Notes under the pieces: generated by a model
Seen by the model: only the letters and a program-made list of their open reading frames with translations
Database searches by the model: none
Told to the model about the DNA's origin: nothing
Virus record (IMG/VR): IMGVR_UViG_3300028920_001039
Coordinates: 1-22,335 of that record
Source of the DNA: a virus
Strand: one strand, 5' to 3'
Length of the DNA stretch: 22,335 nucleotides
In this document: piece after piece, positions 1,976 through 17,242 of the stretch
Numbering within the stretch: position 1 is the first letter of the stretch
How the letters are laid out: each line of letters starts with the position of its first letter
Program-made: the position numbers and the translations under genes

Positions 1976-2308
1976 CTACATCTGGAGCGGGATGCGACGA
2001 CCGTCCGCGGTGATGGCGTTGACGTAGGCCACCTGGGAGGCCGCCGACCCGACGACGTAGAGGTTCTCGAGGTTCATGCGGAAGGCCCCGAAGCTGTAGG
2101 GCCCGAACCGCTTGTAGTTCCCGGCCTTGAGCTTCATGGTGGCATCGGTCCCGGCGTCGTCCACGGTGTCGGGCCCCAGGTAGACGATCCCGGTGTTGTC
2201 CTGATCCGCGACCACCTCGACCTCGAAGAAGTCCTGGCGGGTGTAGCCGATCACGGTCGAGAGCTTCGCTCGGGTCGTCCCGCCGTCGAACTGTCCACTG
2301 ACGTGCAT
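1976..2308 (-). CDS. Putative small virion protein (head decoration or connector candidate, 110 aa)
   Basis: The product starts MHVSGQFDGGTTRAKLSTVI. It looks predominantly beta-stranded, with alternating hydrophobic residues (FFEVEVVADQDNTGIVYLG, NLYVVGSAASQVAYVNAI), no signal peptide and no coiled coil. AAGGAG lies about 9 nt before the ATG, so it has its own good ribosome binding site. It follows the major capsid gene after one inserted gene (the secreted protein at 2388-2927). Small beta proteins close downstream of capsid are often head-decoration or head-tail connector proteins, and that is the basis of the suggestion. No diagnostic motif is visible. Confidence 0.8.
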   Translation of the reverse strand: MHVSGQFDGGTTRAKLSTVIGYTRQDFFEVEVVADQDNTGIVYLGPDTVDDAGTDATMKLKAGNYKRFGPYSFGAFRMNLENLYVVGSAASQVAYVNAITADGRRIPLQM

Positions 2309-2387
2309 GTGTGCATCTCCTTCTCATGCCCCGGGGCGTCTCTTCCCACCCCAGGGTCTTGGGTTTTACGGCAAGCGATTGGGCGAC

Positions 2388-2927
2388 TTAGGGGCCGCCG
2401 CAACCTCCGCAAACGTTGGGCTGGTCATCGAGCAACAGGTACGTCTGGGTAACGACCGTGTCGCGGGTGCCCCCGACAACGCCAATGTCTGCGATAACAG
2501 TACCCACCGAGTCGCAAATCCCGTTCGTGGGAGTATCGGCGGTGAGCGTCACGGAGTCGCCCAAGGCGAGCCCGGTCTGGGCCGCGGCCTGGGCGGCGGT
2601 CTGGAAGGTGAACGAAGTGGCGTCTGATGGAACCTCGGCAAGAAACCTGTTGAGCGCAACAGTCCCACCGGCCGTACAGGGATCACCCATCCCCGCAGCA
2701 TCAACGATGTTCACTGCCACACCGTTTGCAAGCACCAGATTCGTGCCTTCGGTCGGCCCGCCAGAGGGCCCGGCGACGACTTCGACTCCATTGATGGTGA
2801 GCGGGCCCGGGTTGACGCTGAGGCTGGGCACGGTGAAGGTGCCGACACTACCGCTGCCGTACTGTGCAAAGCTGAATGCCGCGGCCAGACCGATGGCGAC
2901 CAGCACAGCGAGAATGCTTCTCTTCAT
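2388..2927 (-). CDS. Secreted protein with signal peptide, moron-like insertion after the capsid gene
   Basis: The 179-aa product opens with a classical Sec signal peptide: basic MKR, a hydrophobic core (ILAVLVAIGLAAAFSF) and a probable cleavage after SFA (about residue 21). The mature part is Gly/Ala/Thr/Val-rich and looks beta-structured. It has Cys in DPCTAGG and ICDSVG and ends in a Cys/Gly cluster (VCGGCGGP), so disulfides outside the cytoplasm are possible. It has its own strong GGAGGAGG site and is separated from the capsid gene by a stable hairpin. It also looks less GC-rich than its neighbours. An export signal is unusual inside a capsid operon. A moron that acts on the host envelope is one reading, and an exported receptor-blocking or lysis-related protein is another. 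I do not recognise the family. Confidence 0.82.
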   Translation of the reverse strand: MKRSILAVLVAIGLAAAFSFAQYGSGSVGTFTVPSLSVNPGPLTINGVEVVAGPSGGPTEGTNLVLANGVAVNIVDAAGMGDPCTAGGTVALNRFLAEVPSDATSFTFQTAAQAAAQTGLALGDSVTLTADTPTNGICDSVGTVIADIGVVGGTRDTVVTQTYLLLDDQPNVCGGCGGP

Positions 2928-2955
2928 CTCTTTGGTCCTCCTCCTAAGAGGGATG

Positions 2956-2979
2956 GGCTGGGGGCCGAAGCCCCCAGCC
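2956..2979 (-). terminator. Stable UUCG-loop hairpin directly after the capsid gene
   Basis: Read on the minus strand, a perfect 10-bp stem (GGCTGGGGGC paired with GCCCCCAGCC) closes a TTCG tetraloop, giving the extra-stable C(UUCG)G geometry. It starts 12 nt after the capsid stop codon and ends before the GGAGGAGG site of the next gene. No T-run follows, so it is not a textbook intrinsic terminator. It more likely works as a partial terminator or as an mRNA-stabilising 3' end that lets capsid transcripts accumulate. Confidence 0.65.
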
Positions 2980-2990
2980 GCTTGCCTCGG

Positions 2991-4247
2991 CTAGTCGTTG
3001 CAGATGGGGTCGTTGAGCATCTGGAGCCGCGAGCTCGCCCGCGGCATGGAGTTGATCTGGTTCTCGACGGACCCGACGTAGGCCAGGAACCCGGCGTTGT
3101 GGCCCCCGGCGGTGGGGATCATCTTCAGCAGGGTGTCGTCGTCGATCCAGTCCAGCGGCATGGCCTCGTAGAGTCCGAAGACCTCCCAGCACGCGAAGTA
3201 GATGCGCCGGGGCTCGCAGTCGAAATCGACCTCGAGCTTGAGGTTCACGCCGGGGGCCAGGATCTGGAGGGAGTCCTCGTCGTAGCCGCTGGTGTACCGG
3301 GGGGCGCTGCCGGTGGGTCCGGGGTAGCGCCGCTCGGCCTGGATGAACTCGACGTACTTCCGAGCCTGCCCGGTGTTGGTCAGGGCGCGGGTGACCCGCT
3401 TGCCCGTCTCGCGCCGGGGCTTGTCGATGGCGTCGAGGATCAGCTGCTCCGTGAGGTCCCGGAGGTGGGTGGACGTCTCCACGAAGGCGTTGAGCTCGGG
3501 GTAGGTGGCCCGGGACAGACCGAACAGCGAGGCCGCGTCCGAGGCGTTCCCGATAATCATGGGGAGGGTCCAGATGTTCCGGCCTTCGGTGTTCTCGATG
3601 AAGATGACGTCGCCCGCGACGATGGTGCCGTCGTTCGCGCCGTCGTAGACGATCTCCCGCGTCTCGCGGTCGAGCGAGGTGATCTTCCGCCCGGTGGCGG
3701 CCCGGGCCACGCCCCCGGTGGCAGCCGAGTAGGCGTCGATCCTCATGTTCTTGTTGAGGAGCTCCGTCTGCAGCGGCTTCGCCAGGACGAGGGTGTTCGA
3801 GCCCGAGTTGGACTCGACGGTGGCGAGGGCCCCGTAGATCGACCCGACGTACACCTTGTTGATGTACTTGCCGAGGTTCTCCACGGTCTTCTCGACGCGA
3901 TCCGACATGATCCCGCCGGAGTTGAAGGTTCCGACCTTCGACTTGGCGGCGGCCTTGGTCTTCACGCCGATCTGGAAGGACCCCACGAAGAGCTCGGGGG
4001 TGACCTCACCCTGCACGCGGGTGGGGTCGATGGGGGCGGGGAACGCGCCCAGGTCCGCGATCATGCCGACGTTCCATGCGGACGCGATGCCGAGCGGGAA
4101 CTTGGCGATCCCTTCGTGCATCTTCAGGTTGACGCGCTGGAGGGCCTTGCGGTAGGGGGCCTCCTTGTTCACCGGCTCCTCGAACGTCCCCGGAGGGTAG
4201 GCGTTCTTGAGCTCGGTGGTGATGTCCTCGAATGCTCCGGTTGCCAT
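2991..4247 (-). CDS. Major capsid protein
   Basis: This 418-aa protein starts MATGAFEDITTELKNAYPPG. It is the shell-protein candidate because it lies directly downstream of a typical scaffold gene and downstream of terminase and portal, has the right size, and is a soluble mixed alpha/beta protein without signal or membrane segments. Around residues 120-150 is an extended helix (MSDRVEKTVENLGKYINKVY) of the kind seen as a spine helix in HK97-type capsid proteins. The C-terminal part (about 330-400) is beta-rich (LKLEVDFDCEPRRIYFACW). It lacks a long N-terminal delta domain, in agreement with a separate scaffold protein. GGGAG lies upstream of the ATG, and a UUCG hairpin follows the gene. The HK97 fold itself is inferred and not read from a motif. 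Confidence 0.83.
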   Translation of the reverse strand: MATGAFEDITTELKNAYPPGTFEEPVNKEAPYRKALQRVNLKMHEGIAKFPLGIASAWNVGMIADLGAFPAPIDPTRVQGEVTPELFVGSFQIGVKTKAAAKSKVGTFNSGGIMSDRVEKTVENLGKYINKVYVGSIYGALATVESNSGSNTLVLAKPLQTELLNKNMRIDAYSAATGGVARAATGRKITSLDRETREIVYDGANDGTIVAGDVIFIENTEGRNIWTLPMIIGNASDAASLFGLSRATYPELNAFVETSTHLRDLTEQLILDAIDKPRRETGKRVTRALTNTGQARKYVEFIQAERRYPGPTGSAPRYTSGYDEDSLQILAPGVNLKLEVDFDCEPRRIYFACWEVFGLYEAMPLDWIDDDTLLKMIPTAGGHNAGFLAYVGSVENQINSMPRASSRLQMLNDPICND

Positions 4248-4273
4248 GCTTTCTCCCTAAAAGGGGAGGTTGC

Positions 4274-5410
4274 CTACAGGCCAGACTTGGCGAGCCGCGC
4301 TCTGGCGGCGGCCATCTTCGGCCCGAGATCTCCCTGATTGAGAGCGCCGGGGGCCACGGGTCTTCGAGGGGTTCCCTTCGGGGGCGGCGGACTGGCTCCT
4401 CGCGCCACCTTCCGCTTCTCCTGGGACTTCTTGGCGAAGCGGTGGCGGGAGGCAAGATCTCGGTCCTTCAGGTACTCGTCCAGATGCGAACGGACGAGGC
4501 CGGGCATGTCCACGGTGGAGATGTCGGCGTCCCCCAGGTTCCAGAGATCGAGCAGCAGCGACTTGTTGACCGACTTCATTGCCGAGGCCATGAGCTCCTT
4601 CGGAACCTCTGCCTCGGCGGCGGCCTGCTGGATCAGTGACGCAACCTCTTCGGGGAATTCCCTCTCGAATTCCTCGGCTTCCTGCGCTTGCCTCTGTCTG
4701 TTTGCCTCCTGATCCTTCAGGGCATGGAGCAACCACTCTCGGTCCTGGGCCAACCTCTCGACGTCGAAGGACAACGTCTCAGCCTTCTCGTTCAGATCGG
4801 CGTACCGCTGCAGAAGGGTTTCCTTCTTGATGACAGCGGTTTCCATCTGGGCAGCGAGAATCTGCTTCTGGTAGTCCTCGGCGTCTTCCATCCTCGCCTC
4901 GAGCTTGGCGATCGTCTTGTCGCTCTCGGCAAGTTTGATGAGGGTGTCCTGGGCACGGGCCTGCAGCTGCTCGCCCTTCTGGGCAAGAGACTCGATCCGT
5001 CCAGTGAGCTTTTGGACGTCCGGGTGTGGGGGAGGAGGCTCAGTTTTCTCGGGCTCCTTCTTGGAGTCGAGAGCGGCAACCTTGGCCCTGAGCTCTTCGT
5101 TCTCTTTCCGCACGCGGCTGGCGTAGTTGGTCTTGTCCCAATACGCCCTGCCCATGGCGGCGCGACGGTCACGCTCGGACTTGAAGTGGCCGAACTTCTT
5201 CTGGAAGTTCCTCCACGATTCGTCGTCCTCGTCGTCGTCCTCGTCGTCCTCGGGCTGGTCCTGCTCTTCCTCGGTGTCTTCGTCGTCGTCTTCGTCGGGA
5301 GCCGGGGCGTCCGGCTCATCGTCTTCGGAGGGCGTCTCGTCAGACAGGTCGTCCTCGGGGCCGTCGTCGATGGCGTCGTCTTCGGGCTCGAGGGCTTCTT
5401 CAGGTGGCAT
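4274..5410 (-). CDS. Capsid scaffolding protein
   Basis: The 378-aa product shows the usual scaffold layout. Residues 1-65 are extremely acidic low complexity (runs of Asp and Glu). About 67-100 is a charged segment (WRNFQKKFGHFKSERDRR). About 100-245 is long heptad-like coiled coil (ENEELRAKVAALDSKKE, SDKTIAKLEARMEDAEDYQK). The last about 60 residues are strongly basic (ASRHRFAKKSQEKRKVARG), like the capsid-binding basic tails of P22-type scaffolds. It lies 26 nt upstream of the capsid gene and downstream of the co-chaperonin. No Ser-His-Asp protease motif is evident, so I see no maturation protease fused to it. The N-terminal DNA is a GTC/CTC-type trinucleotide repeat, which could vary in length between relatives. 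Confidence 0.82.
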   Translation of the reverse strand: MPPEEALEPEDDAIDDGPEDDLSDETPSEDDEPDAPAPDEDDDEDTEEEQDQPEDDEDDDEDDESWRNFQKKFGHFKSERDRRAAMGRAYWDKTNYASRVRKENEELRAKVAALDSKKEPEKTEPPPPHPDVQKLTGRIESLAQKGEQLQARAQDTLIKLAESDKTIAKLEARMEDAEDYQKQILAAQMETAVIKKETLLQRYADLNEKAETLSFDVERLAQDREWLLHALKDQEANRQRQAQEAEEFEREFPEEVASLIQQAAAEAEVPKELMASAMKSVNKSLLLDLWNLGDADISTVDMPGLVRSHLDEYLKDRDLASRHRFAKKSQEKRKVARGASPPPPKGTPRRPVAPGALNQGDLGPKMAAARARLAKSGL

Positions 5411-5444
5411 TTGAACCTCCGCGGGGCGACCGCGTCACATGGTT

Positions 5445-5474
5445 GGGAGAGTGTGCCTTGGGACACCCTCTCCC
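5445..5474 (-). promoter_or_regulatory. Hairpin in the leader of the scaffold gene
   Basis: Complementary arms GGGAGAG and CTCTCCC (7 bp) enclose 16 nt in which GTG and CAC can extend the stem past a small bulge. It lies between the stop of the co-chaperonin gene and the start of the scaffold gene. It may protect or process the mRNA so that scaffold and capsid are made in excess. No T-run follows, so full termination is unlikely. Confidence 0.4.
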
Positions 5475-5479
5475 GTCAA

Positions 5480-5770
5480 TTACGTCCTGTACGCCAGGAT
5501 TTCGTCCTCCCGGAGGATGATGACGTCGGGGTCGTCCTCGTCCAGGGGAACACCGGAGAAGGAGTTGAACTTCACCTCCATCCCCGGGGTGATTCGCAGG
5601 GGAATCAGGGACCCATCGGGAGCGGGGCGTCCGTTCCCGACACGGAGCACCACTCCGGTGCTCTGCTGCTTCTGGTGAGCGTCGGGGACAACCATCCCCT
5701 TCACCACCGTCTCGGCAGCGTGCCTCTGAACCACCAGCTTGTCGTAGAGCGTCTCCCATTCGTTCGTCAC
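5480..5770 (-). CDS. groES-like: GroES-type co-chaperonin (Cpn10)
   Basis: This 96-aa protein can be aligned by eye with bacterial GroES along its whole length. It has an N-terminal strand LYDKLVVQR (8-16), a mobile loop ending in GMVVPDAHQK (25-34) in place of the GGIVL-type GroEL-binding tripeptide region, then STGVVLRVGNGR (37-48, with VGNGR as in E. coli GroES). A roof hairpin follows (PAPDGSLIPL), then the ITPGMEVKFNSFSG strand, and the typical end VIILREDEILAY (83-94). Its length matches the family (about 97 aa). GroES caps the GroEL chamber and drives ATP-dependent folding. Placed just before scaffold and capsid, it probably adapts host GroEL for capsid folding, by analogy with T4 gp31. 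No groEL is in the window. The start is GTG with GGGGGG upstream. Confidence 0.92.
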   Translation of the reverse strand: MTNEWETLYDKLVVQRHAAETVVKGMVVPDAHQKQQSTGVVLRVGNGRPAPDGSLIPLRITPGMEVKFNSFSGVPLDEDDPDVIILREDEILAYRT

Positions 5771-5794
5771 GTCTATCCCCCCTATGTAGTTGAA

Positions 5795-6040
5795 CTACTT
5801 ACTGTTCTTCGCCAGAGCGGTGGCCGCCGTGCGGGCGCTCCGCTGCTGTTCACGCCACTTTCGCAGGGCCGCGGACCACTGGGCGGTGGAGTCGTAGTCG
5901 GCCTGCTTCGGCATGGGCGTGGATCCGGCCTTCTCGAGCTCGCCCAGGCCGCCCGCCTTCGCCTCCTTGGGCTCGACGTAGGTCTTGGCCTTCTTGCCTT
6001 CATAGCCGACGACCTTGCCGCCGCGGCGGTGCTTCTTCAT
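5795..6040 (-). CDS. Small basic protein (81 aa), structural cluster
   Basis: The product begins MKKHRRGGKVVGYEGKKAKT, a Lys/Arg/Gly-rich head. A Gly-Leu-Gly linker and a C-terminal helix follow (STAQWSAALRKWREQQRSAR). I placed the start at this ATG, although the frame stays open 35 codons upstream, because the upstream stretch overlaps and shadows the 43-aa gene; a GGAG lies close before this ATG. It is 24 nt upstream of the co-chaperonin start. The basic head could bind DNA or an acidic partner such as the scaffold, but this is conjecture. No family recognised. Confidence 0.7.
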   Translation of the reverse strand: MKKHRRGGKVVGYEGKKAKTYVEPKEAKAGGLGELEKAGSTPMPKQADYDSTAQWSAALRKWREQQRSARTAATALAKNSK

Positions 6041-6048
6041 CCGCTCCA

Positions 6049-6180
6049 CTACCCGCCTCCCTTCTTCTCCTGGGCCGCCATGATGGCGTAGGCGGCGTCC
6101 CGGCAGGAGCGGCCCTTCTTCGGTTTCAGCTTCCCGGCCCGGCACTTCGCCACCAGGGCCTTCTTCTGAGCCTCGGGCAT
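6049..6180 (-). CDS. Tiny basic protein (43 aa), structural cluster
   Basis: This short gene encodes a Lys/Ala-rich protein starting MPEAQKKALVAKCRAGKLKP and ending in KKGGG. Its ATG overlaps the TGA of the preceding gene (TGATG), the same coupling used at other junctions of this operon, and its stop lies 8 nt before the next start. Two Cys lie at about residues 13 and 26. It probably forms a helix-turn-helix-like pair of basic helices, but no function can be assigned. The regular TGATG junctions on its upstream side are the main reason to believe it is real. Confidence 0.65.
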   Translation of the reverse strand: MPEAQKKALVAKCRAGKLKPKKGRSCRDAAYAIMAAQEKKGGG

Positions 6181-6368
6181 CAGCGTTCTCCGATCCTCGG
6201 CTTCCTCTTCGGCTTGATGTCCATGGGGCTCGGCATCCCCATCTCCGCGTTGCGCTCCTCGGGGTCGATGTCGATGGGCGACGGCATCCCCATCTCCTCG
6301 TTGCGAAGCTGCTCCTTGGTCTTCTTCTTCCGAATGAGGACGTTGGCGGCGTCGGCGGCGGTGGGCAT
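6180..6368 (-). CDS. Small protein with a tandem EMGMPSP repeat (62 aa)
   Basis: The product starts MPTAADAANVLIRKKKTKEQ and contains two adjacent copies of a short repeat: EMGMPSPIDIDP (about residues 25-36) and EMGMPSPMDIKP (about 42-53). It ends in a basic KRKPRIGER. The frame is open far upstream, but the chosen ATG overlaps the stop of the previous gene as TGATG, and everything upstream reads as a Pro/Arg shadow of another gene. The repeat may be a docking peptide presented twice to a symmetric partner. This is inference, and no family is recognised. Confidence 0.68.
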   Translation of the reverse strand: MPTAADAANVLIRKKKTKEQLRNEEMGMPSPIDIDPEERNAEMGMPSPMDIKPKRKPRIGER

Positions 6369-6598
6369 CAGCTTGCCCTCTTCAGGGCCTTGTGCGCGTC
6401 CCTGGCGGTGAAGTTTCGCCGGACCTTCTCTGTGCGGAGTTTCTCGTACATCTCCTGGTTCTCTCGGTAGAGGTCGGCGGCTTCCTTCTGCTCTGCCGCG
6501 GTGGCCCCAGAGCGGCGCAGTTCGTCCTGGCGGCGGGACCGGCGGCGCATGTACTCCTCCGCGCCAGGGACGTTCATCTTGCTCTTGGGGGCTGCCAT
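6368..6598 (-). CDS. Small charged helical protein (76 aa)
   Basis: The product starts MAAPKSKMNVPGAEEYMRRR and is almost entirely charged helix: a DELRRSGATAAEQKEAADLY stretch and a C-terminal basic segment (RRNFTARDAHKALKRAS). Both ends are joined to neighbours by TGATG overlaps, so it is translated as part of a coupled series. It belongs to a set of six such proteins between the portal-adjacent gene and the co-chaperonin. It could be a virion-internal or head-assembly factor, but the sequence gives no direct evidence. Confidence 0.7.
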   Translation of the reverse strand: MAAPKSKMNVPGAEEYMRRRSRRQDELRRSGATAAEQKEAADLYRENQEMYEKLRTEKVRRNFTARDAHKALKRAS

Positions 6599-7074
6599 CA
6601 GTCCTCCTTCTTGGCGGCCTGGGCCAGGGCCCGGGCTGCCTCGCGGGCCGCGTAGCCCTCGCGCCACTTCCGGTCGGCCTCCATCTGCTCCTTGGCCTTC
6701 TTGCGCCTCTTGATGTCCGCGAGCTCCTCGTCGCTCTTCTTCTGGGCCTTCTCCTGGGCCGCGTACCCCCGGGACCGGGTGGAGCGGCGCTGCGCCGCCT
6801 CGTGTGAGGCACGCCTGCGAGCGGGCCGGTCTTGGAGGAAGAGGAAGCGGTCCTCGTCTTCCTTGACCTCCCTCTCCAGATCCGCGATCTCGTCGTTCAC
6901 CTTCTCGGTGTAGGACCGGCGACGTCCACCGCTGCGCCGGTTCCTCTCGTCCTGCTCCCGGCCCTTGGCAGTGAGGGGCTTCGTGGGCTCCCAGTTGGTC
7001 TTGCGCTTCTCGCGCTCCACCCCTCGCCGCGAGTCGTAGCCGTAGGGGTTGTTCTTCGCCTCTCTGCGGTCCAT
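6598..7074 (-). CDS. Highly charged coiled-coil protein (158 aa)
   Basis: The product starts MDRREAKNNPYGYDSRRGVE. Almost half of its residues are Arg, Lys, Glu or Asp. About residues 55-80 form an acidic helix (VNDEIADLEREVKEDEDRFL). Residues 85-158 form a long basic Ala-rich coiled coil (KAQKKSDEELADIKRRKKAK). It begins 4 nt after the stop of the upstream gene and ends in a TGATG overlap. A DNA-contacting or internal capsid role is possible given its charge. I do not recognise a family. Confidence 0.75.
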   Translation of the reverse strand: MDRREAKNNPYGYDSRRGVEREKRKTNWEPTKPLTAKGREQDERNRRSGGRRRSYTEKVNDEIADLEREVKEDEDRFLFLQDRPARRRASHEAAQRRSTRSRGYAAQEKAQKKSDEELADIKRRKKAKEQMEADRKWREGYAAREAARALAQAAKKED

Positions 7075-7078
7075 GGGC

Positions 7079-7513
7079 CTATCTCGGCTTGCAGGGCTTC
7101 GCGGCCAGGGCCGCGGCGGCCATGGAGGACGTGAAGCGGGAGATCTTCCCGCCCCCGCGGACCCGCTTGCGGATGGCCCGGTCCCCCTGCTGGTACATAG
7201 GGGTCTGGCCCAGCTTCGGGCGGGCCCCCTGCTTGCGGAGCCCGGCGGCCTGGAGCCCGCCGTACCGGCGGGAGCCGCGGGTCTTCTGGCCCAGCCGGGT
7301 CCCGTCGAGCTCGCCCACCTTCGAGGAGTGCCCCTTCGCGTTGGCCTCGCGGGTCTTCCGCATCAGGGTGGGGCCGGGCTGCATCTTCTGATCGTAGTGC
7401 TCGTTTTCCCCGCCCTCGTAGACCTCGGTGGCCTTCGTGCCGGGAGGTGGAGCGAGGATGTCGTGCCCCGAGTGGGTGCCCTTCTTCAGGTTTCCTCTGT
7501 ACTTGACTGCCAT
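7079..7513 (-). CDS. Basic, glycine-rich protein of the structural cluster (144 aa)
   Basis: I start it at the ATG giving MAVKYRGNLKKGTHSGHDIL. This ATG lies 4 nt after the upstream stop, and the GGGAGAGGAG at the end of the upstream gene serves as ribosome binding site. An in-frame start eight codons earlier would lie inside the upstream gene. The protein is rich in Gly, Arg, Lys and Gln without hydrophobic core segments for most of its length (GLRKQGARPKLGQTPMYQQG), then has a short Ala-rich helix near the C-terminus (SSMAAAALAAK). Such composition fits a flexible nucleic-acid- or scaffold-binding protein. Function unknown. Confidence 0.72.
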   Translation of the reverse strand: MAVKYRGNLKKGTHSGHDILAPPPGTKATEVYEGGENEHYDQKMQPGPTLMRKTREANAKGHSSKVGELDGTRLGQKTRGSRRYGGLQAAGLRKQGARPKLGQTPMYQQGDRAIRKRVRGGGKISRFTSSMAAAALAAKPCKPR

Positions 7514-7517
7514 GGAC

Positions 7518-8480
7518 CTACTCCTCTCCCGCTCCAATTAGGGCCGCCTGCGTGCCCCCGGCCACCTGGGGAACCACGTCCTGTACCCCTGCCTTCCTCT
7601 CCAGCAACATTCCCTCGAGGTCGAGATCGTCTGCCAGCTTGCGGAGCTTCGTCGCCCGCTCCAGGCCCGGCAGGGACTCCTCCGCGGCCTTCCTTGCGAT
7701 TTCAGCCTCTCGCATGATGCGCCGGGCGGTGGCCTCGGCCTGCTCCGCGGCCTTCAAGCCCTGGTCTGCCTCGGCCATCTGCTGCCGGGCCCCCTGGAGC
7801 ACCTTGTTGTCCTTCCCGAGGAGGTAGGTCCCCTTGCTGTCCCCAGCCCGGGCGGCCAACTCCGCGGCCTCGTCCATCTGCTTCTGGGCAACGTCTCGGA
7901 GCTCGCGGGCCTTCCAGATCTTCTCCACCTGGGACGCGCCCATCCGGTCGGCCTCCACGCCCAGGTGGATGGCGTCGTCGGGGTTCATGATGCCGGTCAG
8001 GCTCGTGTACTTCGTCAGGGGTGTCCGGCGGGCCAGGGCCCGGGCGGCGCTGGCCGCGGTCTTCGACGCCCCGGCCAGGGGCGGCGCGACCTCGGTGACG
8101 ACGGACAACGGGATCGCCATGGCCGTCTTGGCGACGTCCTGGGAGGGATGCCGCTTGAGCTCGCCCACCTCGGGGTAGAGCTCTCGTCCTGCGGCCTCTC
8201 CGATGGCCTCGTAGCCCTCGGCAGCCATCTCCCCCAGGCCGGGGCCCTCGAGGAAGTAGCCGGACCCGGGCTTCAGGCGGGGCATCTCGCCTCCCGCGCC
8301 CACGATGTCGGCGGCCTCGTCGTAGCCCGCGGAGCGGAGTCCCTCGGCGGCGAGCGCCGGGATGGCCCGGATCGTCGCGCCCGCGCCCACGAAGGGGGCC
8401 TGAAGGACGTCAGCCACCGTCCCCAGCCCGCCCATGACCTGACCGGAGAGAGCGTTCCAAGCGTCTCGTGCGCTCGCCAT
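7518..8480 (-). CDS. Putative virion or ejection-type protein next to portal (320 aa)
   Basis: The product starts MASARDAWNALSGQVMGGLG. The N-terminal about 160 residues are Gly/Ala-rich with amphipathic hydrophobic helices (VADVLQAPFVGAGATIRAIP; TAMAIPLSVVTEVAPPLAGA). The segment from about residue 185 to 300 is an Ala/Glu/Lys coiled coil (KQMDEAAELAARAGDSKG, AEQAEATARRIMREAE). This combination resembles internal or ejection proteins of short-tailed phages that insert into membranes during DNA delivery, but no family motif is visible. Its ATG overlaps the portal stop as TGATG, so the two are made in a coupled way. Confidence 0.75.
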   Translation of the reverse strand: MASARDAWNALSGQVMGGLGTVADVLQAPFVGAGATIRAIPALAAEGLRSAGYDEAADIVGAGGEMPRLKPGSGYFLEGPGLGEMAAEGYEAIGEAAGRELYPEVGELKRHPSQDVAKTAMAIPLSVVTEVAPPLAGASKTAASAARALARRTPLTKYTSLTGIMNPDDAIHLGVEADRMGASQVEKIWKARELRDVAQKQMDEAAELAARAGDSKGTYLLGKDNKVLQGARQQMAEADQGLKAAEQAEATARRIMREAEIARKAAEESLPGLERATKLRKLADDLDLEGMLLERKAGVQDVVPQVAGGTQAALIGAGEE

Positions 8481-11266
8481 CAGTTCCCTCCCGGGCCGCC
8501 CTGGGGCGCGGGGGGTGCCTCGGGGGGCGGTCCTTCACCGGGAGCCCCGGGGGCCGGGGCCGGAGCCATCGACTCAATGGCGATCATCCGGTACGCCTCG
8601 ATGACCGCTCTCATCTGGAGGAGCCGGTCGATATTCCACATCTTCTGGAGCTCGGGGGTCATCCTGACACCCTTGGCCTTGGCGGCCTCGGCGGCCAGGA
8701 TGCCCTCCTCGAGGTCCGGCATCATGCGCCGCCAGACGACGTAGATGCGGCGGTCCTTGGAATTGGGGAGGAACCCGTCTACCGGGGGCTTCGGGAAGGG
8801 CGGGATCTGCTCTGGAGGCGGCGGGGCCGCGGCGATGTCGCCCATCTGGGGGTCCGCGGACTGATCGTTGAACTGGGCCTGCTGGGCCGCCTGGGCCGCC
8901 TGCTGGGCCTGGACGGCCTGCTGGTGCAGCTGCATGCCCTGGGAGTAGATCTGGCCCCACTGCTCCCGCGGGAAGGCTCCGTAGATCTGACGCAACTGCT
9001 GATCTTGGAGCTCCATCTGCATCAGCGTCTCCTGCCACCCGGCGATCCGGGGCAGGACTTCCTCCCATGACGCTTCGGACTGGAGGATGTACGCCTTGTC
9101 CGTCATCCACCGCTTCCCCAGGACTGCGTACCACGCGGCGGCGTCGTGCATCGTCTCGTCCACGACGGGGATCTTCTCGTTGTCGAGGAAGTCGCTCCAG
9201 GCCATCTCGGCGCGGATGATCTGGAGGTGCTGCTCCTCGTTCACGTCCTTGGGGAGCTTCATCAGGTCGAGGAGGCGGTCGATGGCGGCGGGGCTGTCGA
9301 GCTTGTAGAGCCCCAGCTGGAGGGCTTCGCCCGCGGCCTCCTTGTTGTAGAGGGTCTGGTCGTAGCCCGCCCGGGCGTCCATCTTGATGTTCACGTTCGC
9401 CAGGAGATCCGTGCCCTTATAGCTCCGGCGCTCGTAGATCCCGGCCTCGGTGAAGACCTCGTAGGACACCTCGTCCTTGCGGAAGACGTGGTTCAGCTGG
9501 AGGAGGTGCTTGAAGGCCCCCTCGTACATCTCGGCCAGGGACCGCTCGCGCATCCCGCGCTTGGCCGCGGCCTCCTCAGAGAGGAGCATCAGGCCGGACG
9601 TGGTCTTGACCGAGCCGGGGGCCTGCCCGATCTCGATGTCCTGTGGGGCTCCCACCAGCTGCGCGTCGGTGAAGCAGTTCTGCCGCTCTTGGAGGTACTC
9701 GTTCCCGGAGAGGGGGCCGCCGGGGAAGAGCCCGTCCCTGGGGGTCCAGCCGGTCAGGGCCGAGTCGTACTCGATCACCACCAGGGACCCTTCGAGGTCG
9801 TCACGGGAGGAGATCTCCGTGCCGGAGGGGGTCCACATGTTGGGCTTGCCCCGCTCCCGCAGATCTACCGCCATAGCGTCGATTTCGTTCAGGCGGCGCT
9901 GAATGGGGACCAGATCGTCCACGAAGGTCCGGCCCCAGAAGTTCTTCGGGACCCGCTTGAACCGGGCGAAGTGGAACTTCACGCGGGGGACGACGTGGAC
10001 CTTGTCCTCCTCGCCCTCCACCTCTTCGCACAGGGGCCGCCGGACGATCTCGTCGCCCACGCGGATGAACCACCCGCCCATCTCCAGGCCCTCGATGTGG
10101 GGCTGGGGGGCTATGAATGTTTCGATCACTCTGGCGTGGTTGGCGTAAACGTCGATTCCGGGCGACGTGGTGTAACCGTAGGCCGTGGTCCCGGCGGCGA
10201 GGCCGGGCTCGGCGTAGAGGGGATTGAGCCGCATGAGCAGCTGGGCGTCCTCGGCCTCGACCTTGTCTGCGATCTCGGGGTAGCGGAGCGCGATCCACTC
10301 CAGGGGCCGCACTGTCATGCAGTTCCAGAGGCGAGCCTCGTCGGGATCCAGGCCCACGCCCGCGTTCTCGGGGAAGAACTCGTGCATGGTGACGACGTCC
10401 ACCAGGGCGTCACCTTTCGGGACGAACACCCCCATCTGCCGCCCGAAAGCATCCTGTCCCCCGGCTTCCTCCTCATTGGGCAGGAAGTCCTCGAGGCTGG
10501 CGGCCTCGGGGTGGAAGGGGCAGAGGGTGAGCTCCACCTGGGGGATGCCCTTGGGGTGCATGGCGGTGGCCTCGCCCTGCTCCTCGACATCACGGAGGGT
10601 TTCCGCGTGGAGGAGCTCCAGGGGGCCTTCTTCGCCCGGCATGGCGACGGTTTGGAAGGACCGAGGAACCCGCCGTGAGGAGAAGAGCCGCCCGCAATGG
10701 GGGCACTTCGCGGGATCCTCGGTCGAAATCAGGGTGAGCTCGGTATCGTTCTCGTCCCACCACGTCCGCAGGATGGCGGTGCCGTCGATGCAGAGGTTGA
10801 AAGCGGTGAACTCCCGCTTGTCATTCCACAGCTGCTTCGCCATCTCCCACATGACGATGTCTTTCGCCAGCCGGGCCCCGGCCATCCACTCGGGGTCGTT
10901 CTTCCCCGCGGACGTGTCCGGTACGTACTCCTTCCGGGTCAGGCGAGACACCTCGTTGTCCACCGCGGGGGCGATGATGTTCGTCACCGGCCTGGGGAAG
11001 GACGCCGCCGAATTCCGGTAGATCTCCCGGAAGTGGTAGGTCCCGTCCCCGGGGGCGAGCTCGGCCCGGGGTTCGATCCACTGCCGCCCGAGGTACATCC
11101 AGGTGTTCATGGCGGCCCGCTGGGTGTTCCAGCGCCGCCTGGGCGAGAGCGGGTTGACGTACAGGTCGAGGAACTCCTTCACCTGTTCGTCGGTGGAGTC
11201 GAGGGAGATGAGTCCCTTTCGCCTCCAGTTGGGGATCTGGCTGGGCGCTGGAGTGGGGTCAGCCAT
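8480..11266 (-). CDS. Portal protein (large, with a zinc-finger-like insertion)
   Basis: This 928-aa protein is the dodecameric head vertex candidate. It lies after terminase and before scaffold and capsid, starts MADPTPAPSQIPNWRRKGLI, and has portal-like features: an N-terminal NTWMYLGRQWIEP region (about 54-66), PVTNIIAPAVDNEVSRL (about 93-109), and a central part with DDLVPIQRRLNEIDAMAVD and SGLMLLSEEAAAKRGMRERS (putative stem and clip helices). Odd: Cys188 and Cys191 (CPHC) pair with Cys249 and His252 (CPFH) across about 57 residues, a zinc-ribbon-like insertion that I do not know from standard portals. The C-terminus has a Gln/Ala helix (QAVQAQQAAQAAQQAQ) and a Pro/Gly tail. The size is nearer the large portals of short-tailed phages (about 700 aa or more) than the 400-500 aa of many siphophages. 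Its ATG overlaps the upstream stop (TGATG). Confidence 0.87.
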   Translation of the reverse strand: MADPTPAPSQIPNWRRKGLISLDSTDEQVKEFLDLYVNPLSPRRRWNTQRAAMNTWMYLGRQWIEPRAELAPGDGTYHFREIYRNSAASFPRPVTNIIAPAVDNEVSRLTRKEYVPDTSAGKNDPEWMAGARLAKDIVMWEMAKQLWNDKREFTAFNLCIDGTAILRTWWDENDTELTLISTEDPAKCPHCGRLFSSRRVPRSFQTVAMPGEEGPLELLHAETLRDVEEQGEATAMHPKGIPQVELTLCPFHPEAASLEDFLPNEEEAGGQDAFGRQMGVFVPKGDALVDVVTMHEFFPENAGVGLDPDEARLWNCMTVRPLEWIALRYPEIADKVEAEDAQLLMRLNPLYAEPGLAAGTTAYGYTTSPGIDVYANHARVIETFIAPQPHIEGLEMGGWFIRVGDEIVRRPLCEEVEGEEDKVHVVPRVKFHFARFKRVPKNFWGRTFVDDLVPIQRRLNEIDAMAVDLRERGKPNMWTPSGTEISSRDDLEGSLVVIEYDSALTGWTPRDGLFPGGPLSGNEYLQERQNCFTDAQLVGAPQDIEIGQAPGSVKTTSGLMLLSEEAAAKRGMRERSLAEMYEGAFKHLLQLNHVFRKDEVSYEVFTEAGIYERRSYKGTDLLANVNIKMDARAGYDQTLYNKEAAGEALQLGLYKLDSPAAIDRLLDLMKLPKDVNEEQHLQIIRAEMAWSDFLDNEKIPVVDETMHDAAAWYAVLGKRWMTDKAYILQSEASWEEVLPRIAGWQETLMQMELQDQQLRQIYGAFPREQWGQIYSQGMQLHQQAVQAQQAAQAAQQAQFNDQSADPQMGDIAAAPPPPEQIPPFPKPPVDGFLPNSKDRRIYVVWRRMMPDLEEGILAAEAAKAKGVRMTPELQKMWNIDRLLQMRAVIEAYRMIAIESMAPAPAPGAPGEGPPPEAPPAPQGGPGGN

Positions 11267-11556: not shown

Positions 11557-13098
11557 TTACAAGCCCGGAAACAGTGTGCCCTGCCGTGACCGTTTTCGGT
11601 CACCAACCGCGTGGTCTGCGATCTTGCGCTTGACCGCCTCGTGCATCTTGTGGGTGTGGAGCTCGAGGAGGTTGTCCGGCTGCTTCGCCGCGGCCTTCCG
11701 CTTCTCCATGTTCTCCCAGACCCAGGAGCGCGGCATGAGGTACTGGATCCCCTGGGTGAAGGCGTCCACCATGTCGTCGTGGACACCGTGCGGGAAGGAC
11801 GCGCCCTCGTCCACGAGGTTCCCTGCCCAGGTCCGGCCCCGGGGGAGGTAGCACTTCCCGCTCTCGACCTTCCCGGCCACGGAGCTCACGCCCCAGTGGA
11901 GCCTGATCTCCTTCCCGGACTTCACCTTCACGGGGACGATCTTGCCGGGGAGCTCCCGCTGCATGAGGTCGATGATAGACGTCCCTGCGGCGGTTTCCTC
12001 GATGAGTTTCACCTTCGCCTGGGGCCACTGGTCGGAGAGTTGCCGGATGGCCTTCATCTGGTCCACCGGGCCCAGGCGCTTCCGAATGCAGTCGATCCCG
12101 TAGTATTCGTTGCCGAGCCGCCCCAGGATCATCGCCACGAAGAAGTCCGCGGTGTCCACGTCCTTGAAGGTGGGGTCCACCGACATGATGATCTGGTCGA
12201 ACGTGTCGATGTCGGGGAGCTCGTCGTACCAGCGCCACCAGTTCCTCTGGAGTCCCACGCCCTCGGGCGGGGCGGGACGCTGCTGGTAGAGGGCGGTGAA
12301 GACCCGGGAGCCCACCTCGGCCCGGATGTTCTCCAGGGCGAGCTCGTCGTACCGCTCCGGCCAGAGGGCCTGCCCGGCGGTTCGCTCGAGGTCGTCGGCC
12401 TCCTCGGCCAGGGCGGGGAAGTTGATCGTCCTCCAGTATTTCGCCTCGGGGGAGTTCAGGAGGCGGCCCAGGAGGTCGTCCTCGTGCCACCGGGTCATAA
12501 TGCAGACGATCACGGCCTCGGGCTCGCAGCGGGTGAGGAAGGTCGTCTGCCACCAGTCCCAGAGGTTGTCGCGGATGATCTGGGAGTTCGCCTCCTCGGC
12601 GTTCTTGATGGGGTCGTCAAGGATCATCACGTTGCCGCCGCGGCCCGTGATGGGGCCGCCCACGCCCGCGGTCACCATCCCGCCGCCCTGGGTCGTCTCC
12701 CAGCGGTGGGAGGCGCGGGAGTCCGTGACCACCCGGGCCCCGAGGATGGGGTAGTGCTCTTGGATCGAGCGGCGACAGGACCGGCCCCACTTCGCCGCGA
12801 ACTGGGCTTCGTAGGAGCACAGGATCACACGGTCCTTCGGGTCCAGGGCAAGGTTCCAGACGGGGAACCAGTGCGAGCACATCTCGGACTTCCCGTGCCG
12901 GGGGGGCATCGTGACAGCGAGGCGCTTCGGGTGCCCCGGCTCCCTGGAGCGCAGGCGCACGAGCTCCGTGGAGAGGAGGTGGAGATGGGGAGCGTAGAGG
13001 TAGGGCGTGGGCGTCTCCGCGGTGGCTGTGACCGCGAGCGCCAACGGACTCAGAAGGTGAGCGAGCTCAGCTTCCGGTAGACTTTGGTGAAGATCCAT
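11557..13098 (-). CDS. terL: Terminase large subunit (packaging ATPase and nuclease)
   Basis: This 513-aa DNA-packaging motor protein docks on the portal, pumps the genome into the head by ATP hydrolysis and cuts concatemers. The ATPase domain shows Walker A VTMPPRHGKSE (about 62-72), an adenine-binding-like region before it, and Walker B VMILDDP (157-163). TRWHEDDLLGRLL (202-214) probably carries the coupling motif. The RNase H-like nuclease domain has the three expected acidic sites: Asp308 in IIMSVDPTFKD, Glu367-Glu368 in KLIEETAAGTSII, and HDDMVDAF (440-447). The length is normal for the family and all key residues are present. Its start overlaps the end of the small terminase candidate by 32 nt, and it precedes the portal gene in the usual order. 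Confidence 0.97.
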   Translation of the reverse strand: MDLHQSLPEAELAHLLSPLALAVTATAETPTPYLYAPHLHLLSTELVRLRSREPGHPKRLAVTMPPRHGKSEMCSHWFPVWNLALDPKDRVILCSYEAQFAAKWGRSCRRSIQEHYPILGARVVTDSRASHRWETTQGGGMVTAGVGGPITGRGGNVMILDDPIKNAEEANSQIIRDNLWDWWQTTFLTRCEPEAVIVCIMTRWHEDDLLGRLLNSPEAKYWRTINFPALAEEADDLERTAGQALWPERYDELALENIRAEVGSRVFTALYQQRPAPPEGVGLQRNWWRWYDELPDIDTFDQIIMSVDPTFKDVDTADFFVAMILGRLGNEYYGIDCIRKRLGPVDQMKAIRQLSDQWPQAKVKLIEETAAGTSIIDLMQRELPGKIVPVKVKSGKEIRLHWGVSSVAGKVESGKCYLPRGRTWAGNLVDEGASFPHGVHDDMVDAFTQGIQYLMPRSWVWENMEKRKAAAKQPDNLLELHTHKMHEAVKRKIADHAVGDRKRSRQGTLFPGL

Positions 13099-13534
13099 CT
13101 GGAGGGAAAACCGTGACCTCCAGCGCCTTGGGCAGCGGGAGGGTCTTCTTGCCTACGACCTCGGCTTCAAGGATCCGGGCCTTCTCGGGGGACTCTCTGA
13201 GAAGTTGCTGGAGGCGTCCTCGGAGTTCCTCGAACCGCTTCTTCTGGGCCTCCATCTCGGCGTCGTCCGGCTTCGGGTCCCCCCCAGCGTAGCGCCAGAG
13301 CCAGATCTCGAGGTTCCCCAGGGATCCCTCGAGGAGTCTCTCGCGCAGCTTCTCCTGATAGTCCGGGTCCGTGATGAGGTTCCGGGCCACCTCCCTGGCG
13401 TCGAACTGGGTCTTCTTCGCCAGCTTGGCCGCCCGGACCTTTTCCATGGCCTCGGGGCTGGCGGCCCGGGCCCGGGCGACGGCCTTCTTTCGCCGTCTGG
13501 TTCCGGGCCCGGGTGCCGGGGGGAGTTGACTCAA
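13067..13534 (-). CDS. terS: Probable terminase small subunit
   Basis: This 155-aa protein lies immediately upstream of terL and overlaps it by 32 nt, the normal place for the DNA-recognition subunit. The N-terminus is basic and flexible (MSQLPPAPGPGTRRRKKAVA). Residues about 25-70 are helical (SPEAMEKVRAAKLAKKTQFD, REVARNLITDPDYQEKLRER). A coiled-coil segment follows (MEAQKKRFEELRGRLQQLLR), then a C-terminal tail that could contact TerL. No classic helix-turn-helix is obvious. I chose a TTG start: GGAGG lies 7 nt upstream, and it overlaps the preceding stop by 4 nt. The call rests on position, size and architecture. Confidence 0.7.
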   Translation of the reverse strand: MSQLPPAPGPGTRRRKKAVARARAASPEAMEKVRAAKLAKKTQFDAREVARNLITDPDYQEKLRERLLEGSLGNLEIWLWRYAGGDPKPDDAEMEAQKKRFEELRGRLQQLLRESPEKARILEAEVVGKKTLPLPKALEVTVFPPDGSSPKSTGS

Positions 13535-14721
13535 CGATTGCCCTCCGCGTAGGTGGGTGCGTTCGCGCAGAACGTCTCCCAGTGTCCGCGGCAGTTACTC
13601 TGTGCCGGGTTCCCCTTGTACGGTGGGTACGGCTCCCCGTTGCACTTCCACTGCTGGTTGCAGAGCTCGGTTTCGCAGATCGGCCTGAGTGGGGACCCGT
13701 CCCCTCTCACTGGGCAGCCGCCCCTGGGCACGCACCCTGGGGAGCCACAGGTGTTTGGGGGGTCGCCCGTTCCAGGCATACAGCAGTATCCGATTGAGCC
13801 GCAGAAGTCGGGTTGGTTGATCGTGACCCATGTGCAATCGAGGATGCCGTTGTGCTCGCGGCACTTGAACTGCATCCGTGAGGTGTCCGGGTGTGGCTCT
13901 GGGCAGTCACCAGACGGAGGCGGGGTTGGAGGGGGTGGTGTAGGGCCCGGGGCGTCCTGGCACGCCGACGTGTCGTTCAGTCTCCAGGCGGGTCGGTCAG
14001 CGTTGGGTGACCAGATCACCTTCCCGCCACCGTAGTTGTAGATCTTGTAGCCCTCCCACCAACCATCGCAGCGAGCGGCCACGGCAATCTCATCAGTCCC
14101 GCCTGGAGTCGTGTCGATGTGCCTTCCGGCGCAAAGCCCCGTGACCTTCACAGCCTCGATCACCGCGTGCATCCACTCGTCGGGCTCCATCCCGGTCGGG
14201 CAGTCGGTCCCGATGTCGCAGCCGGTGAGCTCGCGCATGGCGGTGTTCACGGTGGGGGCGTAGTTCCTCATGACGGGTCCCATGGTCAGGTTCTGGTCCT
14301 GGCCCTGGGGAAAGGTGCAGCCCTCGTCGGGCTCGCAGGGGACCCAGGTGTGCCCGAAGTAGCAGTCACAGGAGCCGGAGCTCGGACGGATGGTCCCGCC
14401 CCGGTCCATGAACTGCGGGCACTGCGGCTCTGGGAGGGGACCGGGGTCCTCGCACTTCGGGGCCTCCTCGCAGTGTTGGGGGTTCGACGTGGGGTTATGC
14501 CAGCAGGGGGACTCCTCCGAGGAGCACTGCTGCGGGGGATCGAGGAGATCACACCGCGGCATCTCCAGCTGGCACTCCCAGGGCGTCGGCGTCGGCTGCG
14601 GGCCGGGGCCGGGGCCGGGGCCAGGACAGCCGGGCAGGATGACGGCAATCGCCAGGAGGAACAGAGCGACGGCGATGAAGAAGACGATGTCTCTTGCCGG
14701 ATCGGGGCGACGGGTCACCAT
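13531..14721 (-). CDS. Cysteine-rich putative lipoprotein of the phage
   Basis: The 396-aa product starts with MVTRRPDPARDI, a long hydrophobic segment (VFFIAVALFLLAIAVIL, about 13-29) and LPGC at 29-32. This is a lipobox-like ending: Leu at -3, Gly at -1, and an atypical Pro at -2. After it come a (PG)n and Pro/Thr linker and an extracellular part with 30 further Cys, suggesting many disulfides outside the cytoplasm. About residues 205-250 carry ARCDGWWEGYKIYNYGGG, a compact aromatic-rich segment; about 255-275 is a Pro-rich hinge. It is the second gene of the leftward operon, directly upstream of the small terminase. A host surface modifier such as superinfection exclusion or a receptor mask is a reasonable guess, but no domain is recognised. 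Confidence 0.82.
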   Translation of the reverse strand: MVTRRPDPARDIVFFIAVALFLLAIAVILPGCPGPGPGPGPQPTPTPWECQLEMPRCDLLDPPQQCSSEESPCWHNPTSNPQHCEEAPKCEDPGPLPEPQCPQFMDRGGTIRPSSGSCDCYFGHTWVPCEPDEGCTFPQGQDQNLTMGPVMRNYAPTVNTAMRELTGCDIGTDCPTGMEPDEWMHAVIEAVKVTGLCAGRHIDTTPGGTDEIAVAARCDGWWEGYKIYNYGGGKVIWSPNADRPAWRLNDTSACQDAPGPTPPPPTPPPSGDCPEPHPDTSRMQFKCREHNGILDCTWVTINQPDFCGSIGYCCMPGTGDPPNTCGSPGCVPRGGCPVRGDGSPLRPICETELCNQQWKCNGEPYPPYKGNPAQSNCRGHWETFCANAPTYAEGNR

Positions 14722-15169: not shown

Positions 15170-15415
15170 ATGCCCAGAAAGCCAACCCAGGAAGAACTCG
15201 AGGAGGCCAAGCTCGCCAGCCAAGCCGCAAGGGCCATGGCGAAGCGCCGCTTGGCGAAGCTCGGGAAGAAGGGGCGGCGGGAGCTCGCACGTCTCGCGGG
15301 GAAGGCCGCGTGGGCCGACATGACACCACGCGAGCGAAGCCTGGAGATGAGGCGGCGCTGCCGCGTCCGCAAGCGCAACAAACTGAAGAAAGCGAAGCAG
15401 AAGCTCGCACAGTGA
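15170..15415 (+). CDS. Small basic early protein (81 aa)
   Basis: The product starts MPRKPTQEELEEAKLASQAA and is very rich in Lys, Arg and Ala. One acidic-basic helix (residues 7-30) is followed by RRELARLAGKAAWADM and a strongly basic C-terminal helix (RRRCRVRKRNKLKKAKQKLA). The frame is open upstream, but the promoter ends just before this ATG, which decides the start; no clear ribosome binding site exists. As first gene of the early operon with such charge, it may bind DNA or RNA, for instance as regulator or recombination accessory factor. This is inference. The next gene starts 11 nt downstream. Confidence 0.75.
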   Translation: MPRKPTQEELEEAKLASQAARAMAKRRLAKLGKKGRRELARLAGKAAWADMTPRERSLEMRRRCRVRKRNKLKKAKQKLAQ

Positions 15416-15426
15416 GGAGGAGAGCC

Positions 15427-16287
15427 ATGCCCAAAACCCCGGAACCAGGGGTCTACCCTGACGTGTCCTACGACGACTACGCCGCGTGGGACGCCATCAA
15501 CTTCCACATTCTGAACTACTTCCGGTACACGGCCTCGCACGCCCGGTGCGCCATGACGTCCGTGGACGAGGAGAAGAAGCACCTCGCCTTCGGGCTCGCC
15601 ACGCACATCGCGGTCCTCGAGCCCCAGCGGTTCGATGAGGAGGTGCTGGTCACGCCGAAGCTGGACCGGCGCACGAAGGCGGGGAAGGCCGCCTGGGCTG
15701 AGTTCCAGAAGAAGGCCGAGGGCCGCCACATCGTCCAGGCCGACGAGTTCGAGGCCCTGCAGGCGATCAAGCGGAACTGCCTGAACCACCCCACGGTCAC
15801 GGAGATCCTGCACTCCGAGGGGGCCAACGAGATCTCGCTGATCTGGAAGGACCCGGAGCTCGGGGTCATGTGCAAGGGTCGTCTGGACCGCATCGCGGCC
15901 CTGGGGGGGACCCAGGCCATCGTGGTGGACCTGAAGACCATTGGCCGCCCGGCCACGACCCGGACGGTGGAGCGGAACTCCTACGACTTCGGGTATCACG
16001 TCCAGGCCGCCATGTACCTCCACGGGCTGTCCGTCCTCCGGCCCATCCCCGAGGGGGGGGACGCCTACGAGTTCTTCTGGATCTTCGCGGAGTCCGCGCC
16101 GCCCAACGAGGTCCGGCTCTTCCGCGCCGACGAGAACGTCATCGCGGACGGCTACCAGAAGTACCGGGACTACCTGTTCACCTACTCCGAGTGCAAGAAG
16201 CACGGCAAGTGGCCCGGCTGGGGACACGGAGTGGACGAACTCATGCTGCCCGCCTGGGCCCAGAAGGTGTTCGATGCCACCAACTGA
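15427..16287 (+). CDS. RecE-like PD-(D/E)XK exonuclease
   Basis: The 286-aa product starts MPKTPEPGVYPDVSYDDYAA with GGAGGAG upstream. It shows the motif series of the RecE/lambda-exonuclease-like PD-(D/E)XK family: His60 in FGLATHIAVLEP, Asp154 in CKGRLDRIAAL, the Asp168-Leu-Lys170 core in AIVVDLKT, and Gln193 in YHVQAAMYLHG. Such enzymes digest one strand from a double-strand end 5' to 3' and leave a 3' overhang for the annealing protein. The enclosed length is close to the RecE nuclease domain alone, so there is no long RecE-type N-terminal region. The gene overlaps its RecT-like partner by 14 nt, a standard pairing for recombination modules. All expected catalytic residues are present. 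A Cas4-like nuclease is a less likely alternative since no Cys cluster exists. Confidence 0.87.
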   Translation: MPKTPEPGVYPDVSYDDYAAWDAINFHILNYFRYTASHARCAMTSVDEEKKHLAFGLATHIAVLEPQRFDEEVLVTPKLDRRTKAGKAAWAEFQKKAEGRHIVQADEFEALQAIKRNCLNHPTVTEILHSEGANEISLIWKDPELGVMCKGRLDRIAALGGTQAIVVDLKTIGRPATTRTVERNSYDFGYHVQAAMYLHGLSVLRPIPEGGDAYEFFWIFAESAPPNEVRLFRADENVIADGYQKYRDYLFTYSECKKHGKWPGWGHGVDELMLPAWAQKVFDATN

Positions 16288-17242
16288 GAACGACCAGCCA
16301 GCCGCAAACCCGCGTGAGAGCATGGTTTTCTCGGATCGGGGCATCATGCTCACCTCGGTCCAAGACGCCATCAACTTCGCCACCTGGGCCTTCGAGTCCG
16401 GCTACCTTCCCCAGGTCAAGAACGTGAAGCAGGCTTTCACGATCCTGGCCCGGGGGGCCGAGCTCGGCCTCCCCCCCTTCGCCTCGTGGCGCTACATCTA
16501 CCAGACCCGGGGCGGCAAGCTGGCCCTGGAGACGAAGGGGGCCCTGGCGGTCTGCTCCGCTCACCCGGTCTTCGAGGACTACTCCGAGTGGATCGACAAG
16601 GAGGGGACCGAGGAGATGACCGCCTACGCCCAGGCGAAGCGGAAGGGCAGGAAGGCCGTCATCAAGACCTTCAGCATGGACGACGCCAACACCGCGGGCC
16701 TGCTCCAGCGGCCCAAGAGCCGGTCCACGGGCCAGGAGTACGACGGGACCTACCAGAGCTACCTGAAGGACATGCTCCAGGCCCGGGCCCGCGGGCGCGT
16801 GCTCGACATCGTGTTCCCGGACGTCCTGGGGGGGATCCCCGTCCAGGGCGTTGCCGAGGACATCGACATGATGGAGGAGCGCCGCGAGCCTCGGGTGAAG
16901 CGGGCCCCGTTCCAGCAACCGGCCCCGAAGCAGCTGCCCGAAGGGAAGCGCCGGGCCTCGATCCTCGATGAGCTCTCCGGGAAGAAGCCCGAGGGCGACA
17001 ACATGATCTCCCTCATGCGGGCCGAGGAAAAGCCCGAGGAGGCCATCGAAGCCCAGGTCAAGGAGATCTTCCCGCCGTCCGAGGACGAGCTCCCCGGCGA
17101 CAAGCGGGACTGGCAGGGCGGCCCGGGGGATCTGCCCCCCGACGACCACGCCAGGGCGAAGAGCGTCATGGACGGTATCCTGAAGGGTCCCAAGGAGAAG
17201 AAGCCGCCCAAGGACGACGAACCCGACGAAGAGATCTTCTAG
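16274..17242 (+). CDS. RecT-like single-strand annealing protein with an acidic SSB-like tail
   Basis: This 322-aa protein binds the 3' single strands made by the preceding nuclease and anneals them. The core (about 25-200) shows a pattern I know from RecT-family phage recombinases: VKQAFTILARGAELGLPPFA (51-70), then IYQTRGGKLALETKGALA (75-92), a KTFSMDDANTAGL segment (131-143), and YLKDMLQARARGRVLDIVFP (163-182). The C-terminal about 110 residues are disordered, charged and Pro-rich, ending DDEPDEEIF, which resembles the acidic tip of bacterial SSB (DDDIPF). This might recruit host SSB partner proteins, or mimic SSB. The ATG at 16274 has AAGG upstream; an alternative start at 16322 (MVFSDRGIML) would remove 16 residues and the overlap. 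Confidence 0.83.
   Translation: MPPTENDQPAANPRESMVFSDRGIMLTSVQDAINFATWAFESGYLPQVKNVKQAFTILARGAELGLPPFASWRYIYQTRGGKLALETKGALAVCSAHPVFEDYSEWIDKEGTEEMTAYAQAKRKGRKAVIKTFSMDDANTAGLLQRPKSRSTGQEYDGTYQSYLKDMLQARARGRVLDIVFPDVLGGIPVQGVAEDIDMMEERREPRVKRAPFQQPAPKQLPEGKRRASILDELSGKKPEGDNMISLMRAEEKPEEAIEAQVKEIFPPSEDELPGDKRDWQGGPGDLPPDDHARAKSVMDGILKGPKEKKPPKDDEPDEEIF

Follow-up and report, generated by a model that had tools for sequence, protein, structure and literature searches.

A GroES co-chaperonin gene in the head gene cluster of an uncultured phage lineage and its atypical GroEL-contacting tripeptide

Background

Phage-encoded co-chaperonins that act with the chaperonin GroEL are known from T4, in which folding of the capsid protein gp23 requires the phage product gp31 together with GroEL (PMC3012670). 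In gp31 the roof loops are missing and the loop is longer, giving a larger chamber for the 56-kDa gp23 (PMC6318259). In GroES the contact is made by the tripeptide IVL, which touches residues L234, L237 and V264 of GroEL, and the L27A variant is unable to interact with GroEL (PMC3514286). GroES genes have also been reported from other phages: siphovirus B8b carries one, linked by its authors to capsid or tail structure (PMC4294664), in the flavophage family 'Pervagoviridae' GroES counts as a core gene (PMC8776804), and HTVC023P-type phages have it among their 13 core genes (PMC9599517). In the part of the literature that was covered we found no paper discussing the placement of GroES in the head cluster as such.

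In this work we have analyzed a GroES gene in a viral DNA stretch, a linear IMG/VR record of 22,335 bp, referred to below as the window, and in its relatives. An initial annotation of the window had assigned the gene to GroES, placed it in the capsid gene cassette and proposed a folding chain of host GroEL, phage cap and capsid protein.

Results

Identity of the GroES gene and organization of the head gene cluster

The 96-aa product is beyond doubt a Cpn10/GroES protein, as first annotated. The likeness runs along its length, residues 7-93 being matched by Pfam PF00166 Cpn10 (3.8e-15; 56.1 bits against the curated cut-off of 21.1), by PHROG 3188 'co-chaperonin GroES' (8e-12) and by solved GroES chains in PDB (down to 2e-12); PF00166 was matched by all 21 proteins of a wider alignment. 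The protein contains VGNGR, GMVVP and VIILREDEILAY, the motifs claimed for it, GMVVP forming the core of the mobile loop with the GroEL-contact tripeptide MVV at residues 26-28, and the roof hairpin VGNGRPAPDGSLIPL is intact. The AlphaFold (AF2) model of the single chain (pLDDT 90.8) shows the GroES beta-barrel, and Foldseek ranked nothing but GroES chains at the top, most of them taken from structures of GroEL-GroES complexes (E down to 2e-8). The start codon is GTG, with TAGGGGGGATAGAC as the ribosome-binding region 5′ of it; in the nearest relative, L002, the ATG of GroES is preceded by the same TTAGGGGGGATAG.

Table 1 Features of the head gene cluster in the window (coordinates of the GroES gene include the stop codon)
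Feature	Coordinates	Strand	Size	Basis
Terminase large subunit (TerL)	11557..13098	(-)	513 aa	PHROG 38 2e-103; Pfam Terminase_6N/6C
Probable portal (head-tail connector)	8480..11266	(-)	928 aa, 104 kDa	PHROG 332; position after TerL
Ribosome-binding region GGGGGG ahead of the GTG start of GroES	5771..5790	(-)		direct sequence reading and relative L002
Phage GroES (Cpn10) co-chaperonin	5480..5770	(-)	96 aa, 10.7 kDa	PF00166, PHROG 3188, PDB GroES, AF2/Foldseek
Probable scaffolding protein	4274..5410	(-)	378 aa, pI 4.6, coiled-coil-like	position; next gene after GroES
Major capsid protein (MCP)	2991..4247	(-)	418 aa, 45.6 kDa	PHROG 14242 major head protein 2e-18

The genes on the (-) strand follow the order TerL, a 95-aa product, the probable portal, several small ORFs, GroES, the scaffold-like protein, MCP and further genes (Table 1). 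The 928-aa protein is a putative portal, judged by its position and by PHROG 332 (head-tail adaptor/connector), a weak-to-moderate match obtained for 10 of 11 members (best 1.4e-8). The 378-aa protein is the probable scaffold from its position, acidity and coiled-coil-like sequence; relatives were aligned from 12 members, PDB yielded coiled-coil matches only, and family searches gave no convincing match. The location of GroES among head genes is thus as initially described, while the label 'scaffold' is weaker than that description had it. Profiles of portal and MCP gave nothing meaningful against PDB sequences, the AlphaFold model of MCP reached a pLDDT of 37 (11-row alignment), and promoter and terminator scans of window positions 2300-9000 remained at chance level.

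Several neighboring genes were recorded as well. Sec-like signal peptides ending in AQ, odd among virion-region genes, are encoded at 2388-2927 (-) of the window (MKRSILAVLVAIGLAAAFSFAQ), and similar AQ-ending, signal peptide-like starts occur within or close to the lineage's head cluster (L005 8553-9287; L024 about 6215-7402; L003 165-515). A Cys-rich 396-aa protein with a lipoprotein-like start, AIAVILPGCPGPG, and no PHROG match is encoded at 13531-14721 (-); it is kept upstream of TerL, or between GroES and scaffold in L005/L025. An exonuclease VIII-like PDDEXK gene (PF12684 1e-23, PHROG 412) and, next after it, a RecT-like one (PHROG 4171) lie at 15310-17242 (+).

Conservation of GroES in the lineage

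Viral contigs of the lineage were gathered by searches with GroES, TerL and MCP, and their genes were mapped by phmmer. Every contig covering the interval shows the order TerL, 95-aa product, portal, small genes, GroES, scaffold-like protein and MCP. Fourteen contigs were fetched with MCP, that is without using GroES, and GroES was found in 13 of the 13 that extend far enough upstream (L017 stops short and was left out), the independent count being below 13 because L018, L019 and L022 carry identical GroES. In two cases other genes, about 3.5 kb of them in L009/L024 and about 9.8 kb in L005/L025, separate GroES from scaffold/MCP; its link with the portal side is therefore the closer one.

The GroES reading frames are intact throughout the lineage, and dN/dS values of 0.07-0.32 for close pairs indicate purifying selection; between the window and L002 the ratio was 0.32 for GroES, still purifying, versus 0.12 for both MCP and TerL. 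The roof is not uniform, since the hairpin is shortened at L004 7995-8279, L005 7995-8285 and L010 7304-7585, a partial parallel to the roof-less gp31 of T4.

No Cpn60 (GroEL) was found in the 14 GroES-bearing viral records, several of them 56-67 kb long, with the control detected in 14 of 14; if GroES works as a lid, its GroEL partner must therefore be that of the host. Tyrosine integrase was absent from all eight records searched for it. Assignment of a host was dropped, as a search of 84,980 genomes of bacteria and archaea gave no relative of MCP, and the terminases found were only 36-44% identical and spread over many phyla.

The mobile loop and the GroEL-contact tripeptide

Bacterial loops were sampled as 33 GroES proteins plus 15 more picked as the best scorers with the phage profile; in all of them Gly precedes a tripeptide of I/L, V/I/Y/F and I/L/M. 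Among the 19 lineage proteins, position 1 of the tripeptide is I, L, M or V with one T (hydrophobic in 18/19), position 2 is A (10), V (5), E (2) or otherwise K or D, and position 3 is V (17) or I (2). MVV of the window has counterparts such as MEV (L002), LAV (L018), IDV and IKV. Fisher tests on these residues are descriptive only, since the phage sequences have a common origin. The Gly ahead of the tripeptide is kept in 12 of the 19 and lost in seven, and little is left of the K/T-rich approach, which bears out the earlier remark that the loop upstream of the tripeptide departs from the bacterial type.

The real peculiarity of the lineage GroES is this atypical GroEL-contacting tripeptide. 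Its pattern, hydrophobic at positions 1 and 3 with a free middle, would be expected if the loop docks more weakly or on a different surface of GroEL, and a smaller or charged tripeptide may, with less certainty, mean weaker or retuned binding to host GroEL. The further suggestion that the loop tunes chamber size found no support: the window protein has a complete roof hairpin, its loop is one residue shorter than most bacterial loops rather than extended, and MCP has only 45.6 kDa.

Origin of the lineage GroES

A tree was built from the 19 lineage proteins, 33 bacterial GroES of many phyla and other phage GroES, on 104 columns and with a limited bacterial sample. The lineage forms a single clade (support 100/99) on a long stem and is strongly diverged from every bacterial GroES sampled. 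Across the same 12 contigs GroES distances correlate with those of portal (r 0.61), TerL (0.59), scaffold (0.58) and MCP (0.44), the remaining head genes reaching r 0.72-0.92 among themselves; mean identity is 0.46 for GroES versus 0.68 for MCP. Since the proteins form one clade and their distances track portal, TerL and scaffold, the sequences most likely reflect a single acquisition of GroES, which would then have travelled with the head cluster while changing faster or less regularly.

A GroES with the tripeptide IEI, encoded at 5941-6282 of an apparently different viral contig (L045), adjoins the lineage clade (94/72); a 603-aa terminase-like ORF lies about 1.6 kb downstream of it. Five actinobacterial genomes (L162-L166) carry a second, roof-less Cpn10-like gene; it was rejected as a source, being roof-less and forming its own clade (100/100). 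Two Listeria phage matches (34%) were discounted as phage evidence, since they come from unannotated contigs in a set that also has host-like groES. A record named Acinetobacter phage MD-2021a (CAKLQH020000021.1) has groS-groL amid glycerol and carboxykinase genes and looks bacterial-chromosomal.

Other phages with GroES in the head cluster

The placement is neither special to this phage nor new, because six public phage genomes show the same order: DSL-LC04, Pelagibacter HTVC023P, Planktothrix Pag-Yong1, Roseobacter CRP-901, Caulobacter RW and Caudoviricetes ct2os315 have an annotated GroES at the same spot, so that at least six genomes whose head proteins are not detectably related to those of the lineage share the arrangement. 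The HTVC023P-like group (genomes of about 44-65 kb) mostly has TerL, a large protein at the portal position, small genes, GroES, an acidic coiled-coil protein and the capsid protein. No match to the lineage was obtained with its profiles of portal, scaffold and capsid protein (hhalign probabilities of 3, 1 and 0.2%, with shallow profiles), and most of its GroES loops, unlike those of the lineage, belong to the canonical KTxGG type and carry bulky tripeptides. The HTVC023P-like GroES form a separate supported clade, and a joint clade with the lineage was not rejected (AU p 0.39). GroES occurs with no annotated head genes nearby in Vibrio phage D93, Mvi-JY20 and DAC16.

Discussion

We think it likely that the phage GroES serves as a heptameric lid on host GroEL that is produced together with the head proteins and lets MCP fold before prohead assembly. 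The heptamer would displace or supplement host GroES on the chaperonin, its timing would be set by its expression along with the head genes, and new MCP, perhaps with other head proteins of suitable size, would fold in the chamber before the prohead is assembled. The chamber of GroEL holds proteins of up to about 60 kDa, and the portal, despite its linkage to GroES, is a less likely client because its 104 kDa exceeds this limit. From the folding chain proposed at the outset, a real co-chaperonin conserved in the head cluster of viruses without a GroEL of their own stands; the heptamer, its binding to host GroEL and MCP as the client are what we infer.

Several observations favor the lid role: the fixed place between portal and scaffold/MCP, the Cpn10 fold, the lack of a Cpn60 in the 14 viral records and purifying selection. 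On the level of sequence comparison, the conserved ring-joining strands, the well-supported clade and the co-divergence of GroES with portal, TerL and scaffold and, to a lesser degree, with MCP are consistent with it. By analogy, so are the phages that have GroES at the same spot although their head proteins show no detectable similarity, and the precedent of gp31 (PMC3012670). Against it speak the atypical tripeptide, which is MVV in the window and MEV, IDV or IKV in relatives, the GroES distances, which fit MCP worst among the head genes, and the two contig types in which GroES stays near the portal with scaffold/MCP some distance off.

The same data have to be weighed under other readings. 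A captured GroES of host type might be a general folding helper that raises the supply of GroES for many phage and host proteins and has no specialisation for the capsid. Its ordinary fold and roof would suit such a helper, as would the three phages lacking annotated head genes near GroES, but the fixed head-cluster place, which the HTVC023P-like group shows separately from the lineage, and the strong divergence from all bacterial GroES sampled make this explanation unlikely. We regard as still less probable that the fold has been repurposed, no longer serves GroEL and acts in particle or prohead assembly, for example as a portal ring or cement protein. The smaller or charged tripeptide would agree with this, and GroES tracks the portal more closely than MCP and stays beside it where MCP is distant; however, the tripeptide has a hydrophobic residue at position 1 in all but one protein and V/I always at position 3, as expected if both face GroEL, the ring-forming strands are kept and so, in most members, is the roof. 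A non-essential remnant or chance linkage could account for the faster divergence of GroES than of MCP, yet it is very hard to reconcile with intact frames, dN/dS well below 1 and the presence of GroES in every covered contig, and is already contradicted by this conservation.

Within the lid role, which we prefer, the unusual contact could have a meaning of its own. We tentatively raise, as a possibility rather than an expectation, that the contact has been weakened or retuned, small or charged residues having taken the place of the bulky tripeptide; the lid would then be restricted to one particular host GroEL or would cycle faster, favoring MCP over host clients. On this view head-cluster GroES would have arisen on two or more occasions, among phages whose heads are unrelated, and with different binding chemistry.

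These results extend phage co-chaperonins to an uncultured lineage whose head cluster regularly includes GroES. A GroES gene in this position was already known in public phages, and the distinctive part of the lineage is its unusual loop; phages without detectable relatedness of their head proteins have retained GroES in this position, and capsid folding suggests itself as the reason they share. With the lineage, 19 natural variants of the GroEL-binding loop become available, some with charged tripeptides, and since L27A abolishes the interaction of GroES with GroEL (PMC3514286), they ask how weak the contact of a working lid can be.

Comparison with gp31, CocO and bacterial GroES

What the window GroES would share with T4 gp31 and RB49 CocO is the role of a phage-encoded lid for host GroEL with the capsid protein as proposed client (PMC3012670), this role being predicted here and CocO likened by description. 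The likeness to gp31 drawn initially holds for function only and extends neither to fold nor to gene placement. gp31 is a weak fold match to the window model (Foldseek E 0.048), far behind GroES chains, and T4 gene 31 adjoins rIII and 31.1 rather than capsid genes, whereas the window GroES lies in the head cluster. The roof loops are absent and the loop is lengthened in gp31, in contrast to the roofed window GroES with its slightly shortened loop.

With bacterial GroES the window protein has in common its length, the beta-barrel, the roof hairpin, the ring-interface strands and the G-hydrophobic-x-hydrophobic-P core of the loop; the first and last strands, which join neighbors in the known ring, are kept in the lineage (W..LYDK.IV and LREDEIL). 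Clade-wide the lineage differs from bacterial GroES in having W at the place of GroES I3, DK for DR and no AKEKP segment, and further in F/H replacing the roof-side Tyr and in a tripeptide with V/I as the third and A/V/E/D/K as the middle residue.
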